NCBI RefSeq assembly: GCF_000417875.1
Contig: NW_006920873.1
Location: 118,842 to 180,327 of the forward strand
DNA from: Pseudozyma flocculosa PF-1
Taxonomy: Eukaryota; Basidiomycota; Ustilaginomycetes; Ustilaginales; Ustilaginaceae
DNA: 61,486 nt
Reading direction: 5' to 3'
Shown: piece by piece, positions 47,001 to 54,747 of the stretch
Position numbering within the stretch: position 1 is the first letter of the stretch
Layout of the letters: each line of letters opens with the position of its first letter
Notes under the pieces: generated by a model
What the model was told of the DNA's origin: nothing
What the model saw: the letters and a program-made list of their open reading frames with translations, nothing else
Database searches by the model: none
Made by a program: the position numbers and the translations under genes

Positions 47001-49414
47001 CCTCTTGCCATCCTCTCGTGTTATCTATCTCGTCTCACTCTCTCGAGTCTCGCATCGCGTCCCGTGCAAAGGGCAGAGTACGGCGGTGCGGCACCTTCCG
47101 AACTCGGTTGCTCGACCTGGGCCGTGGCTGCCGTGTCGGCAAGAGGTGGCGTCCCAGTCTCGCTCCCTTCCCGGCACGTCTAGTGCCCAAGCGCTTCAGC
47201 GGAGGCTCGGACAGGCCGCTGCGCCCTCGACTTGCGCGACCGCTGGCCAGATCCTCTGAGAGCGACCGTCCTGGCTTGCACGTACGCTTGAACTTTTGCC
47301 GGCTCGCGAGACGATTCTGGCTCGCCTCAGCGGGTCCGAAGCGTTATTGTCGACGCTGAGCCCGATTTCATCACGGCTGCCATCCGAAGCGTGGGGTCCC
47401 GGAAGGGCCTGCCTGCCCTTGATATCGTGTACGCGACGACCACGTCGCCCTCGCGACGGCTCCAGACGACGTCCGCCGGCGGCCAGCGCGCCTGGCCTGA
47501 GATTCATGCGATGGCAAGCAGCGTCCGTCCGTCCGTATGCCAAGCCTCCGGAGAGACAGCTCTAAAGTCACACAAAGCGTCTGGGTTGGGGGCACCGACG
47601 AAGCGACACGTCGTCTGGACGGAATCCATGACCTGGCCGGCGCGACCCAGCGTCCATCCGCAGCGATATATCATTTTCTTCTCGCCACGTCCAATTTTTT
47701 TTCTTTTCCTGCCACTGCTCGTCTCTCTGGCAGCCCGTGACCATCGACCGGTACGGTGCTGTACCAGGGCTCTGGCACCGCCTGGATGGGCCTAGACGAG
47801 GCTGCAGGCTCGTCCATGGCGGCGGCTACTTTGTCGGCTTGCCGCATCGAGAGGGGCGCGGGGGGGTTATTTCCTGGTCCGAGGGTCTGGCCTCTCTCTC
47901 TCCTGAGCGCAGGATAAGTACAGTAGAGGTTTGGACGGGGATACGGCATACGAGCCGCGCGAGCCGGTCCATGCTGATGGACCTGCTAGATTCAGATCGG
48001 ATGCACCCTGCTTTCGGCCCAAGCCCAACGGCGGCCGGGCGACGCAACCTGGCGACGGCAAGAGGTGCTGCCGATGGTCCGCTGCCTCGACGATGGATGG
48101 ATCCGGCAAGTCAGAGCTTGTTTCGCCTGCCTCTCTGCTTCTCGAACCTTCTTTTGTCTTCCGTGCTGTCCGTGCCGCTCGACGGACGGACGACCCGTTT
48201 GGGACTCTGAGGCTGTCTGGCCAGATCTGTCTGTCCGTCCGTTCCGTCCACCCATCGGCCAGGCTCGCTACTGCTGCTAGCTCCATCGCCGAAGCCGATC
48301 CTTCAGGCTGCCGTACCACTGGTACATAGGGGCGACTGGCTCGTGGACCCCGCTATGGCGTGTGTCGGAAGTGAGGGGACGACGTCGGTATGGCACGGAC
48401 CTCAATCGTGTCGACGATGACCTGGGTCCGACTACAGGTGAGGTGCGCTGCTAGCTCAGCGCACCTTGCAATAGCAGAGACGAGGCCAGGCCAGGACGAC
48501 CCCGAACACGGAACGATGCTTCGCGACGCGTACTTTCTGCCGCCAGGCCAAGCTAGGCCTGATCAGGCGAAGGACAGACACACAGATCAGCGTGGGCAGC
48601 CGGTTCATGGTCGAGCAGCAACGAGCAGGTGGCACCAGCCCAACCTCTCCCACGCTACCGATACCTGGCCAATGATGGTCGCCCAGAAGTCCGAGTCGGC
48701 TGGCACGGCGCCCGAGGGCGATCCCGACCGGGGTTTTGGCAGCGTCGTAAGCGCGCTTGGCGGCGAGACAGCTGATGGCCTTGCGATGTCGCAGAGGATG
48801 AGGTAGTGTGGGGACGGAACGGAACCCGAGGCCGAGCGAGGAGACGCGAGACAGGTGCAGCGTCGATGAGGAAGCAAGTGGATCGCCATCGTCGTAGGGG
48901 TCTGAGGGGAGGGGACGGTCGAGGGGCTGGGTTGCCAGCTAGCGGGTAGCCCAGCCCAGCCCCGCACTGATTTTCGTTTTGAATTTTGGGCGTCTTTTAC
49001 CTTTTGGCCTCGGGCGCGGGGTTTGGGTAATCGAGGGCAGCATGGCCGAGATGGGCCGAGGCGGGCGAGAAAAAGAAAGTGGAGAAGGTCAAGCCAAGGC
49101 CAAAGGGTCGGCGGCTCTTTGTCGCTCGCACCGAACCGCCCACGCCCGACGCAGCCTTCATCGCTCGTCGCTCATCGTTCCCCGCACCTCGATCTCGTCT
49201 TCTTCACGCACCATCTCCTCGCACATCCACCGACGACGGCATCGCCCACCCTGGCCACAGAGCAGCCAGTCCAACAGCCCGCGGGAGCATGCAAAGGGTC
49301 CTCCGAGCTTCTCTCCTCGTACGCACCGCTGCAACGCCCAGGACCCCCCTTCGCCCCGTCCCGCTCCGCCCGCACCCAGGTCTGCCACGGCGACTGGTCA
49401 GGCCTTCGTCCACC
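47001..49414 (+). other. Gene-poor stretch, part 4, and promoter of the MCMBP fusion gene
   Basis: No supportable gene. GATATATC (47665-47672) is followed by CT/T-rich sequence (47673-47730), a promoter-like arrangement with no clear gene after it. A T-rich island at 48969-49009 stands out in GC-rich surroundings about 410-450 nt before the fusion gene's ATG and is its likely nucleosome-free promoter. An in-frame upstream ATG lies at 49289. Confidence 0.5.
49289..49414 (+). other. In-frame mitochondrial-leader-like extension of the MCMBP fusion
   Basis: ATG 49289 opens 42 residues in frame with the main start at 49415. The extension has nine Arg, no Asp or Glu, and starts MQRVLRASLLVRTAATPR, very like a mitochondrial presequence. 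Context is fair (A at -3, C at +4) and poorer than the CCACCATGG at 49415, so leaky scanning could yield both forms. The PLP homeostasis protein of animals is partly mitochondrial, which gives the extension a possible purpose; this is inference. Confidence 0.5.
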
Positions 49415-52400
49415 ATGGTCCCCGACACCTACTTCACCCACGCCCTCAACAAGCCGTCGGATCTCATCCAGTCCCTCTACGACAAGGCCACCGACAAGTC
49501 GGCTCCGACCTTTGCCCGCGACGTCGAGTCCCACTTCCGCACCACCTTTGCCCACGCCGATGCCCGCTCAAAGATCCCCGTCCTCTCGCAGGCCGTCGCG
49601 CAGCCTCTCCTCCAGCAGCAGCACGGCAGCACATCCTCGACCGCGGGCAAGCTCGTGAGGTGGAGGTGCATGGTCCAGGACACTGGCCTCGGCACCGAAG
49701 TCTTCCTCTCCTCCAGCAGCGCCCAGGGGCACGACTCCGCCCGCTGCGGCCTCTTTGGCGCTGAGAACTCGGCCGCCGCACACAGCGATGCCGACGACTT
49801 CACCCACGTCGACAGCTCCAAGCTCGGCGAGCGCACCGTCGTCTACGCCGTCTCGGTGCCCGGAAGGAGCGACTGGGCACGCCGAGCATGGGGCGAGGAT
49901 TCGGCGTCCTCGGCGTCCTCGGCGTCCTCGGCGTCACAGACGCCCAGCGCCACCGACCGAGATGGACAAGGCGACGAACTCAGCTCCAAGATGGCCGCGA
50001 CCTCCCTCCTCGACGAGCCCCAGTCTCCGCAAAAGGTCGAGGAGGTCAGGCAGCGCATCCGGGCAGCCGTCGAAAAGGGCAAGGCCGTCGGCGGCAGCGG
50101 CAAGGAGCCTCGACTCGTCGCCGTCTCCAAGCTGCACCCCCCTTCGGCCATCCTCGCCGCGCACCGCCAGGCAGGTCAGCTCCACTTTGGCGAAAACTAC
50201 GTCCAGGAGATGGTCGACAAGGCCAAGGTGCTGCCAAGGGAGATCCGCTGGCACTTTGTCGGCGGCCTGCAGAGCAACAAGGGCAAGCTGCTCGCATCCA
50301 TCCCCAACCTCTACCTCCTCGAGACCCTCGATTCGGTCAAAGCGGCAAACGTCCTCCAGAAGGCGCTCAGCTCGCCGGATGCGCCCAAGCGGGACGAGCC
50401 GCTGCGCGTCTACCTCCAGGTCAACACCAGCGGTGAGGACGCCAAGAGCGGCCAGCCGCCCATCCTCGACGCTCAGAGCCTCGACGAGGCTTCTCGACCT
50501 CTGCTCGACCTAGCGGTCCATGTCATCACCAAGTGCCCCGACCTGAGGCTGAGGGGCGTCATGACGATCGGCGCGGCGGCCAACAGCGCCAACACTGCGG
50601 CCGGACAGGAGGCCAAGAGCGTCGAGGACCTCGTCTCGGCCAACCCGGACTTTGAAAAGCTCATCCGAACCCGCAAGAACCTCGTGGCTCTGCTGCGCTC
50701 CAGCTCCGACGTGGCCAAGAGCGACGCGGCCCACATCAAGGAGGCCTATGCGCAGCTGCTGGCCGAGGGCGGCGACGAGAGCGGCGGCCTCGAACTCAGC
50801 ATGGGGATGTCGGCCGATCTCGAGGTGGCTGCCATGGTCGGCAGCGACAACGTCCGCGTCGGCACCGACTGCTTCGGCAGGCGTCCGGGCACGCGCGACG
50901 AGGCCATGGCCGGCATGAAGCGCGAACTCGAAGTGGGCATCGAGGCCGCCATGGCCGAGCTCCGCAGCAGCGTCCAGGGCCAGGGCCAGGGCCAGGACAA
51001 GGCGTCCGCGAGCGGCAAGCACGGCGAGGTCTCGGCGTCCGCATCAGACCCGGGGCCGCTCGCGTACCAGGACCCGCTGCCGCAGAAGGCTCCCTTGCCC
51101 GAGGAGGGCCACGTCGGCGGACTGATCAAGGTAAGCGCTTCGCCCCGAGGTTCCCCTCTCCATCGATCTCGATCCGTGCTGATCCAAACTCTTCCCTGCA
51201 ATCCGTCTGTTGCCAGTTCTACGATGTCGATGCAGCCGAGAAGCTCAAGACTACCGAGATGGTCGACGTTGTCGGCATCCTCGACACGGCCTCGTGAGTG
51301 AAGAGCGCCGTCGATCCTTGCAGTGATGCCGTCACAGCTTCTGACGAGGGCCGACTCGACTCTTTCGATGCGCCGCGCGACAGCCTGCCGCACGCAGAGT
51401 GGCAGGAGTCGGGCTCGTCGGGGACGTCGGGCAACAACACCTCTCCCTCTGTGCCCTGCGTCCATGCCCTCTTTTTCGAGCCGGTCGACATCAACGACGC
51501 TCAGGGGCTCGCTGCTGCCGGCAGTTTTGGCCTGTCGGACCAGGGGAAGAGGTCGGCCATCATCGACTACCTCTCAACCGGCCTAGGAGGTGACAAGGTC
51601 GCCGCCGAGCTCGTGTTGCTCTCGGTTATCTCTAGGATGTGAGTTGCCCAGGTGTGCGCGTGGATCTCCCGACTTTGCGCAACGGTCGAAGTGGTAGCTC
51701 ACCCCATCTGGCCACCACCATCTACATCGCACTGCAGCCACTCGCGCCGAGCCAGCCTCTCGCTCGGCGCGCTGACCGTCAACCTGTCCAACTTCCCCGC
51801 GCCGCCCGCCTCCGGGAGCGGTGCCACGACAAAGATCTCGCGGCTGCTATCGAGCCTTCTCCCATCGGTCGTGGACGTGTCGATGGATCTCAAGGACCTC
51901 AACGACCCCAAGAGGAGCTTCAGCCCTCGGAGCTCGGGCGGTGAAGTCGGGCTGGAGGCCGGGAGGCTGCAGCTCGTCAACGGCACCGCGCTGGTCGTCA
52001 ACGAAGGCACGATGAAGGAAGGCGAGCTCAAGGAGCACGGTGAGTGTCGATCGCGGCGCGGTGGCGGTCGAAGGGAGGATCCGTTGCCGCATGGCCGCAG
52101 CTCTGACCCTCGAGGATGTCCTCCGCACGCTCCGATGCCACCTGCTGCCAGGCATCCGCAACATCAAGTCGCTCTCGTCGGTGCTGGAGTCGCACAAGCT
52201 GCCCTACATCTTCCCGTACTCGGAGTTTGAGTTTGAGACAGACCTCAACGTCGTCGTGCTGAGCCAGGGCAAGTCGTTCCTGCCCTTTGACGTCCAGTGT
52301 CCCCTCGCGGTCGCCTCCTCGTCCTCGGTCGCCAGCGCCCTGTACGGCGAGGTGGATGGGATGCCGGTGCAGGACAAGCTGGAGGGGTGGAGACGGGCGC

Positions 52401-52805
52401 TCCTGTCTGCGCGAACGCTGCAGGTGGCGCAGGCGTTTGAGATCCCGGGCGAGGTGAGCGAGTATATCCAGAGCGAGTTTGTCGAGTCGCGCAGGGAGGA
52501 CAAGGAGGTCGGGCAGGAGGATCTGTTGCGCCGCATGGCCCTCGTCCGGTGAGTCCAGTTGCCCGAGTGCGCCGAGGCGGTCCGCGGTCCGCTTCCAGCA
52601 CCATCCTGCGTCGGACCCTCGTTCGCTGACGGTGCCGGTTTGACCTTTTAATCCCGCGCGCCCCAGGCTCCTCGCCATTTCCAAGGGCGAAAAGACGCTC
52701 ACCGTCGATACGTGGAAGGCGGCCGTCGAGCTCGACTGTACCGTTTCGCAGCGTCGTCGGGCCGCCGTTGCGCAGCAGCAGCATCACCCGTCGGGCTCCA
52801 GGTGA
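49415..52805 (+). CDS. MCMBP: MCM-binding protein with an inserted PLP homeostasis (YggS/YBL036C) domain
   Basis: Six exons, 49415-51130, 51217-51293, 51384-51638, 51738-52039, 52101-52548 and 52667-52805, give 978 residues. MCMBP/ETG1 binds MCM helicase subunits and aids their unloading or assembly and sister cohesion. Residues 1-163 match its N-terminus (VRWRCMVQDTGLGTEVFL, ERTVVYAVSVPGRSDW). Residues 200-500 are a whole YggS-type domain with PLP lysine 239 in VAVSKLHP, HFGENYVQE, IRWHFVGGLQSNK, LQVNTSGEDAKSG, GVMTIG, LSMGMSAD and RVGTDCFG. From 550 MCMBP resumes (GGLIKFYDVDAAEKL, VVGILDTAS, AAELVLLSVISR, LGALTVNLSNF, SFLPFDVQCPL, TLTVDTWKAAVEL). No stop and no GTRAGT donor separates the parts in exon 1. 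Donor 51294 is clear; acceptor 51383 is preferred over 51323, which would leave a 30-nt intron. Confidence 0.88.
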
Positions 52806-53450: not shown

Positions 53451-54536
53451 TTACTGGGTGGCGTTGGTCTGCCTCATGGCCGGGGCGGGCTCGATGCCCG
53501 GGTTGCCGGCGTTGGTGTTGACGTTGTTGAAGTTGTCGTGGCCGATGATGCCGTGCGGGTCGTTGGTGCCCGTGGTGGTGGCGCCGGCACCGGTGGTGGT
53601 GGTGTTGGCGGGGGCGTTGGTCGAGTTGGGCAGGACGCCGGTGTGGTGACCGCGGGCCTCCATCCGCTTTGCGTCCTCGACGGAGCGGGGCGTGGGGCCG
53701 GCAAAGTCGGTGTCGTAGTCCGAAAACTTGCCCGAGCGCAGGTGGAGCGACGAGTAGTCGCACTTGCGCAGCGAGAAGAGGTGGACCATTGCAAAGACGG
53801 GCTTGGCGAGCAGGTCGAGGACGCCGTAGAAGACCATTTCGCCGTCGGGCGAGATCTGGTTGCTGCCGTCGGCCAGGCCCCAGGCGATGGGGTAGAGGAA
53901 CCACAGGCCGCAGAGGATGGCGGCCGAGGTGAGGTACGACTTCTTGAACTCGGCGCCCAGGTGGCTCGCCGACTTGAGGCCGGGCACCCAGATGACCCAG
54001 AAGACGTAGAACATGGCGACGCAGCCAAAGGTGAAGAAGCCCCACTTGTACCGGCTCTGCACCAGCGCGCCAATGAGGCCCGTGATGATCATGACCAGGT
54101 CAAAGAAGATGGTGACGAAAATCGTCGAGAGGGGCAGTCCCGAGACGAGGAGGAGCTCGAGGAGCAGCAGCGGCGTCGTGATGGTCCAGTCAATGTAACG
54201 CGCGTACCAGATGGAGCGCGTCGGGTAGAGGCCGTCGCCGCCGACAAAGGCTCCGTTGAGGAACTCGACGCGGATCGGCGTGGCGCCGAGGTCCGAGGCC
54301 ATGGAAAAGTAGGCAATCGACGCCGTGGCCAGGATGGCGGCGCTGAGGTAGTGGAAGGTGCGCTCGCCGCGGCTCATCTTCATGCCCCAGACCATGCAGC
54401 CGAGGCCGGTGGCGGCCATGACCGAAAAGACGGCCCACAGCCAGCTAGAGCCATTGGTGGTGATGTCGATCTGGGCCACCGTGGGGTTGAGGTCGAGCGC
54501 GTTGTTGCGCCTGGCGAGGCTGACGAGCTGGTCCAT
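53451..54536 (-). CDS. Microbial-type rhodopsin (light-driven ion pump family)
   Basis: Seven-helix retinal protein, 361 residues, no intron. Seen: helix C RYIDWTITTPLLLLELLL with Asp116 at the counter-ion/acceptor position (D85 of bacteriorhodopsin) and Glu127 at the donor position (D96), eleven residues apart as in the family; helix F FLYPIAWGLADG; Glu233 at the release-group position; and helix G YGVLDLLAKPVF with Asp241 and retinal Lys245. The Lys and both carboxylates make a working outward proton pump or a NOP-1-like slow photoreceptor likely; Glu in place of Asp at the donor position is also seen in Neurospora NOP-1. The C-terminal 75 residues are Asn/Thr/Gly-rich and cytosolic. The ATG at 54536 precedes helix A by about 30 residues. 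TATAAG lies 212 nt upstream. Confidence 0.94.
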   Translation of the reverse strand: MDQLVSLARRNNALDLNPTVAQIDITTNGSSWLWAVFSVMAATGLGCMVWGMKMSRGERTFHYLSAAILATASIAYFSMASDLGATPIRVEFLNGAFVGGDGLYPTRSIWYARYIDWTITTPLLLLELLLVSGLPLSTIFVTIFFDLVMIITGLIGALVQSRYKWGFFTFGCVAMFYVFWVIWVPGLKSASHLGAEFKKSYLTSAAILCGLWFLYPIAWGLADGSNQISPDGEMVFYGVLDLLAKPVFAMVHLFSLRKCDYSSLHLRSGKFSDYDTDFAGPTPRSVEDAKRMEARGHHTGVLPNSTNAPANTTTTGAGATTTGTNDPHGIIGHDNFNNVNTNAGNPGIEPAPAMRQTNATQ

Positions 54537-54747
54537 GACGGGCAAACGACTCGCTGCTAGCGTCGAAACAGAGGGAGGAGAGGGATACGCAAAGGGGCCT
54601 GGCTGGCTGGCGGGCTGCTTGGTGGTCGCTCGGGGACGTGGCGAGAGGAGCAGGGGCAAAGACGGGCCGAGGGAGTCTGCTGCGCTGGAGCCGGGTGGTT
54701 AGATGGGGATCGGGGAGGACAGGATGGGGACGACGGCCTACCCTCTT

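Follow-up and report, generated by a model that had tools for sequence, protein, structure and literature searches.

Gene fusions are normally taken as a sign that the partners work together. Does this hold when a complete protein of vitamin B6 homeostasis is read from the middle of a replication factor? The question is raised by one gene in the window, by which we mean the whole stretch of 61,486 nucleotides of Pseudozyma flocculosa PF-1 DNA analysed here. In this gene a YggS/YBL036C domain is embedded in an MCM-binding protein (MCMBP), and the embedding itself is a real observation.

An open-reading-frame scan returned a stop-free frame of 756 codons (49031-51301). Within it, a single exon without a stop (49415-51130) runs from the MCMBP N-domain through a linker into the complete YggS domain, and through a second linker into the first part of the MCMBP middle domain; the remaining MCMBP sequence is carried by five further exons downstream (Table 1). 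With splice sites set by comparison with relatives, the product extends from the ATG at 49415 to the stop at 52805 and is 961 residues long. A 998-residue splice model with acceptors at 51324 and 52101 was discarded because relatives place them at 51384 and 52152. The first-pass annotation had reported the MCMBP-YggS-MCMBP order in one frame and the same start and stop, and the open frame, the succession of both Pfam families and the TIGR00044 match described below agree with it; its product of 978 residues was superseded by one of 961 once the two acceptors were set. It had also remarked on the lack of a stop and of a GTRAGT donor, and our scan of exon 1 likewise found no GTRAGT, GTRNGT or GTAAGN donor inside it. 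A frame of this length stayed open in just 6 of 2000 Markov resamples of the exon. Third-position GC is 0.84-0.96 across the five regions of 49415-51130, both linkers included, and the overall GC of the five introns is 0.58-0.69. The low-complexity appearance of the linkers, another point of that annotation which stands, is due to tandem repeats that keep the frame (3.9 copies of a 9-bp unit and 3.8 of a 6-bp unit), which are absent from the Thecaphora protein.

Table 1. Parts of the MCMBP-YggS fusion gene, in positions of the window.
Feature	Position	Strand	Basis
Optional N-terminal extension, 42 aa (MQRVLRAS...), Arg-rich, no acidic residue; candidate mitochondrial presequence	49289..49414	+	in-frame ATG
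MCMBP N-terminal domain, start of the 961-aa product	49415..49891	+	MCM_bind profile 23-153, E 3.3e-14; 0.68 mean pairwise identity, 17 orthologues
Linker 1, in-frame 9-bp repeat at 49901-49935	49892..50023	+	matching segment of orthologue model has pLDDT <50
Complete YggS/YBL036C (PLP homeostasis protein) domain	50024..50938	+	profiles; orthologue model matches 1ct5 (YBL036C), TM 0.86
Putative PLP lysine, residue 239	50129-50131	+	inside YggS domain
Linker 2, in-frame 6-bp repeat at 50974-50996	50939..51079	+	matching segment of orthologue model has pLDDT <50
First part of MCMBP middle domain; exon 1 ends here (donor gtaagc)	51080..51130	+	splice model
Exon 2, MCMBP middle	51217..51293	+	comparison with Thecaphora P0001
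Exon 3, MCMBP	51384..51638	+	MCM_bind, alone 23.8 bits, just below cut-off
Exon 4, MCMBP	51738..52039	+	MCM_bind 323-419
Exon 5, MCMBP	52152..52548	+	MCM_bind 419-547
Exon 6, MCMBP C-terminus and stop	52667..52805	+	splice model, MCM_bind

Both parts of the protein belong to recognizable families. Pfam MCM_bind matches the 961-residue protein at 318.8 bits (cut-off 25.6); this match has two stretches, with Ala_racemase_N (residues 230-491, 38 bits, cut-off 24.1) between them. The first stretch covers profile positions 23-153 and the second runs to position 576 of 577; apart from the insert, the profile is covered along its whole length. The YggS part is recognized by NCBIfam TIGR00044 at 155.2 bits (cut-off 106.25), and its fold type III TIM barrel is seen in the model of an orthologue (P0002), which matches 1ct5/1b54. 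The whole domain, the motifs of the PLP site and the fold are common to the window YggS and the PLPBP/COG0325 family (yeast YBL036C, E. coli YggS, human PLPHP). Members of this family are called single-domain in PMC9605639, whereas the window YggS lies within the chain of a different protein, which makes it a PLPBP domain rather than a typical PLPBP protein.

The fusion gene carries the only YggS and the only MCMBP found in the P. flocculosa assembly (23.05 Mb, 33 contigs), which may be incomplete. Queried with the YggS domain, the assembly returned a single match at E<=10, and the second YggS gene that the first-pass annotation had suggested looking for was not found in this assembly. The only further Ala_racemase_N match (L001) is on inspection what we take to be a D-threonine aldolase/D-serine dehydratase-like protein. 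All four MCM_bind matches in the assembly are pieces of the fusion gene.

Relatives, known from predicted proteins rather than DNA, were sought with the 998-residue version of the spliced protein, which gave 60 matches. Each of the best 18 of these (P0001-P0018) contains both Pfam families, and all 18 have the order seen in the window, with the MCMBP N-domain motif followed by YggS and then by the MCMBP middle domain; the second half of MCMBP is complete in 16, P0017 and P0018 being truncated. Among the carriers are Thecaphora frezii (68% identity), Kalmanozyma brasiliensis, Ustilago loliicola, U. trichophora, Testicularia cyperi, Sporisorium reilianum, S. scitamineum, S. graminicola, Pseudozyma hubeiensis, Melanopsichium pennsylvanicum and Violaceomyces palustris; none of the fused rows P0001-P0018 bears the name of U. 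maydis. The fused relatives span three orders of Ustilaginomycetes, including Urocystidales and Violaceomycetales, the remaining one being presumably Ustilaginales. Since the same order recurs in 18 proteins from three orders, it is no local artefact or simple merger by a gene caller. P0017 departs from MCMBP right after the residues VK, where the window has intron 1, so the position of this intron seems to be shared.

Conservation is uneven along the fusion protein. Among 17 orthologues (the window and P0001-P0016), mean pairwise identity is 0.84 in YggS, the best conserved part, 0.68 and 0.74 in the MCMBP parts, and 0.48 and 0.46 in the linkers. The 13 YggS positions checked, which we take to be the PLP Schiff-base lysine and the phosphate-site motifs, are invariant in all 17 proteins, PLP lysine included (Lys239 in the window).

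The insertion site can be located by comparison with unfused MCMBPs, in which the VSVPG and HxGxxxK motifs are separated by a linker of 31-71 residues (22 rows in alignment A1, of 34 unfused). In the fusions, YggS directly precedes the PxPExxHxGGLxK motif of MCMBP. The letters LSL are found in the linker of 10 of the 22 unfused proteins and ahead of YggS in 3 of 19 fused rows (P0001, P0004, P0018), and the remaining fused rows show looser variants, AVSI or ATSLL for example; from these letters, YggS sits late in the old MCMBP linker. An AlphaFold2 model of the Kalmanozyma orthologue P0002, predicted with an alignment of 58 sequences, has a mean pLDDT of 86.9 and a pTM of 0.68. Most of YggS exceeds 90, and residues 168-184 and 504-521, which correspond to both linkers, fall below 50, as do four shorter stretches elsewhere. 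Foldseek matched the model to YBL036C (1ct5/1b54, TM by target 0.86/0.87) and to MCM subunits (about 0.4). In the orthologue, both folds are thus predicted to be kept and joined by disordered linkers. Insertion at a disordered linker of MCMBP and the integrity of both folds had been proposed at the outset; the first agrees with the linker of unfused proteins and with the low pLDDT of the modelled linkers, the second with a model that represents the Kalmanozyma orthologue and not the window's own protein. In comparison with the MCMBP/ETG1/Mcb1 family at large, the fusion conserves the N-domain, middle and C-domain, and its orthologue model resembles MCM subunits, but it carries a PLP-binding-type barrel of about 305 residues in the linker that measures 31-71 residues in the unfused relatives.

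MCMBP is not the only host. Predicted proteins of other Ustilaginomycotina, again known without their DNA, carry YggS in ARMT1/DUF89 (Malassezia, internal), in twinfilin (Microstromatales, internal) and in MTHFR (Tilletia, at the C-terminal end), and three of the four fusion events are internal insertions. As in the MCMBP fusion, YggS lies within the host chain of the 18 ARMT1/DUF89 proteins (P0034-P0048, P0080, P0081, P0084; Malassezia among their sources), but host and site differ. In nine of these 18 that were tested, the host part follows L008, the unfused homologue in P. flocculosa, as far as residue 440 in every case and restarts at 444 in seven; the short models P0080 and P0084 lack the right-hand break. 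The model of P0034 (pLDDT 84.4, pTM 0.84) matches both fission-yeast DUF89 (0.82) and YBL036C (0.92); it places YggS within the phosphatase domain, with junctions that are predicted to be ordered, unlike those of the MCMBP fusion. Twinfilin and MTHFR likewise show native YggS in another gene. In the 11 twinfilin fusions (P0019-P0022, P0027-P0033) YggS comes late, between the ADF part and a C-terminal tail that reads exactly KGFAKPKRPG in six and close to it in five; the unfused twinfilin of P. flocculosa ends KGSFARPPRPGRR. Of the carriers, Jaminaea was assigned to Microstromatales by taxonomy look-up, and we take Sympodiomycopsis and Parajaminaea to belong there too. YggS is C-terminal in all three MTHFR fusions compared out of the four from Tilletia. 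The genome's own ARMT1, MTHFR and twinfilin show no YggS fusion in P. flocculosa. Malassezia sp. CBS 17886, Tilletia maclaganii and T. horrida combine a YggS fusion to another host with an unfused MCMBP.

Several further protein models deserve mention. The unfused MCMBP model of Malassezia sp. CBS 17886 (P0181) has an extra PF01111 domain, presumably of the CKS family, and is perhaps a merger of neighbours. Three Pleosporales proteins (P0049, P0051, P0052; 671-709 aa) have a long N-terminal part ahead of YggS and may be another fusion or a gene merger; one Colletotrichum protein has a long N-terminal addition as well. No Pfam domain was named in these additions.

How many captures do these hosts represent? 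A guest tree was built from 94 YggS domains, including 42 of 71 standalone proteins; nine other long proteins were left out and a tenth was dropped owing to its short match. Rooted on other basidiomycetes and further rows, it places Ustilaginomycotina and relatives on one side of a branch with an SH-aLRT of 98. Because the fused domains nest within this clade, YggS appears to be native, and its recent horizontal transfer was rejected. The MCMBP (19 rows, 87), ARMT1 (18 rows, 99) and MTHFR fusions (4 rows, 100) each form one group; the twinfilin group (11 rows) also holds two 'partial' standalone models, which are probably pieces of fusions. Standalone lineages, including Tilletiaria, Exobasidium and Ceraceosorus, lie between the fusion groups. 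In a host tree of 41 MCMBPs, made up of 18 fused proteins and 23 of the 34 unfused, the fused rows come out with a single origin; the support of 78, like the 87 of the guest tree, is only modest, and Violaceomyces forms a long branch. We also considered a single ancestral fusion followed by host swaps. The AU test was run on 82 rows, without the 'partial' models P0065 and P0078, the nine 'otherlong' rows and standalones above P0095; holding all 52 fused rows together was rejected marginally (p-AU 0.0415), and parsimony on these rows needs four changes. The differing hosts and insertion sites are a stronger argument for separate captures than this test. Thus, YggS seems to have been captured separately by different hosts at least four times in Ustilaginomycotina.

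Published work describes what each part might contribute. PLPHP is proposed to be a chaperone or carrier of PLP (PMC10463200; PMC13353753); the human protein is located in cytosol and mitochondria, and yeast without YBL036C loses PLP when its carbon source requires mitochondria (PMC10463200). Human MCMBP binds MCM3 and MCM proteins, MCMBP promotes MCM2-7 assembly with nascent MCM3, and its nuclear localisation signal is dispensable in human cells (PMC9018068), so the fusion chain need not be tightly nuclear.

The best explanation overall, to which we give a probability of about 0.8, is that a single chain serves two unrelated housekeeping jobs, with an essential YggS guest that was captured once and stayed embedded. 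The native YggS coding sequence would have moved into the disordered MCMBP linker in one event, before the sampled Ustilaginomycetes diverged, and the gene would now yield one chain of MCMBP-N, YggS and MCMBP middle plus C-domain. Tethered on flexible linkers, the YggS barrel would still bind and buffer or deliver PLP, and the flanking MCMBP parts would still bind and assemble MCM proteins. We infer that the fused protein performs both jobs independently; the need for each part may keep the other in the gene, and no specific signal between B6 and replication would be involved. The MCMBP fusion would then be one instance of a guest gene changing carriers.

A second in-frame start adds a further aspect to this explanation. 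The interval 49101-49420 contains just two ATGs, and both of them, 49289 as well as 49415, are in frame; the first-pass annotation made no mention of the upstream one, which would prepend MQRVLRASLLVRTAATPRTPLRPVPLRPHPGLPRRLVRPSST to the fusion protein. Extensions free of Asp and Glu, with 5-9 Arg/Lys, stand ahead of the MVP start in P0001, P0004, P0009 and P0017. A basic, acid-free extension is present in all five MCMBP fusions with visible upstream sequence (window included) out of 19 rows; the other 14 begin at the MVP/MIP methionine with nothing visible upstream. For the window extension, 2079 of 20000 resamples do as well, and its GC by codon position is not coding-like. None of the hydrophobic moments of the five extensions beats shuffles at 0.05, and that of the standalone protein P0069 does (0.034). 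By eye, a presequence-like start precedes the second Met in 2 of 11 twinfilin fusions (P0021, P0032) and in 3 of the 21 standalone smut-side rows shown (P0069, P0071, P0072); these stretches include one acidic residue in P0069, one in P0032 and several further upstream in P0021. The four Tilletia MTHFR fusions have no such extension, and the sole long one in Malassezia (P0040) has acidic residues. More weakly, and as an unproven point, we infer for the fused MCMBPs a presequence-bearing form for mitochondria, where YggS would be required, and a short form for nucleus and cytosol, made from the two starts; the location of human PLPHP and the yeast phenotype described above lend this idea plausibility.

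A broader and tentative extension of this idea, possible at best in our view, treats YggS as a nomadic guest whose whole coding sequence entered unrelated hosts at least four times (three of them internally) and which serves two compartments by means of presequences. Some route would favour capture in frame; a gene lying within a host intron might, for instance, have turned into an exon. Hosts would keep or gain an optional mitochondrial presequence, one gene could supply both the host compartment and mitochondrial B6, and the replication factor would enter mitochondria as a passenger.

The explanation by a single chain with two independent jobs has to be weighed against four others. Separate products might arise from the locus by exon skipping, an internal promoter or internal initiation, for which the Met just ahead of YggS in the window (SSKMAAT) would be suited; this is unlikely, as 13 of 19 rows have no Met in this segment, the position of the Met is not conserved, exon 1 has no consensus donor, and the predicted proteins of 16 relatives read through both linkers. 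Alternatively, PLP occupancy of the embedded YggS could regulate MCMBP and couple vitamin B6 state to MCM assembly or unloading. That three ustilaginomycete orders have retained the fusion, both of its parts being intact, would suit such coupling, which we nevertheless consider quite improbable: the linkers are the most variable parts and are disordered in the model, and MCMBP is no special partner, as relatives have YggS joined to a phosphatase, to an actin regulator and to a folate enzyme. The first-pass annotation had left the choice between a tie of B6 supply to the replication helicase and a simple tolerated fusion; the latter fits better, and the tie is not favoured, since native YggS has three other, unrelated partners in sister lineages. 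Judging from these sequences, an essential guest that became embedded repeatedly, in hosts unrelated to one another, is preferable to a B6-replication circuit, which is unlikely. Disordered linkers are predicted on both sides of YggS, where a polyprotein might be cut after synthesis, but no shared cleavage-like motif was seen in them by eye and excision of YggS would leave MCMBP in two pieces, which makes this very improbable. An artefact of assembly or gene calling is barely credible, for although such mergers exist (P0004 with its extra rhodopsin), YggS is internal and not end to end, many independent assemblies agree, and the window has one uninterrupted exon.

No description of a fusion of this kind appeared among the titles and abstract openings listed from the open-access literature, in one case 8 of 600 matches, in line with the initial impression that no such system had been described; the fusion is conserved and, as far as searched, undescribed. 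With at least four apparently independent fusions to unrelated hosts, the YggS family can serve as a test case of tolerated, as opposed to functional, fusions, and it calls for caution when function is predicted from a fusion. Several questions become testable as well: how a complete gene enters another in frame, how a mitochondrial need for YggS is satisfied with its only copy inside a replication factor, and how an insert of about 305 residues is tolerated by MCMBP. Several fusion proteins are named 'Pyridoxal phosphate homeostasis protein' in UniRef, which affects the annotation of MCMBP. A protein of Dissophora ornata (P0209) is labelled 'putative alanine racemase' with MCM_bind as its sole listed Pfam domain; our guess is that the label may trace to the fused smut proteins, and the word 'racemase' is absent from PMC3335088.

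Finally, a microbial rhodopsin gene (Bac_rhodopsin, E 9.5e-37) lies at 53451-54698 on the minus strand, tail to tail with the fusion gene, and the Testicularia gene model P0004 merges a rhodopsin with the MCMBP-YggS fusion; together these suggest that the neighbourhood may be old but rearranged.
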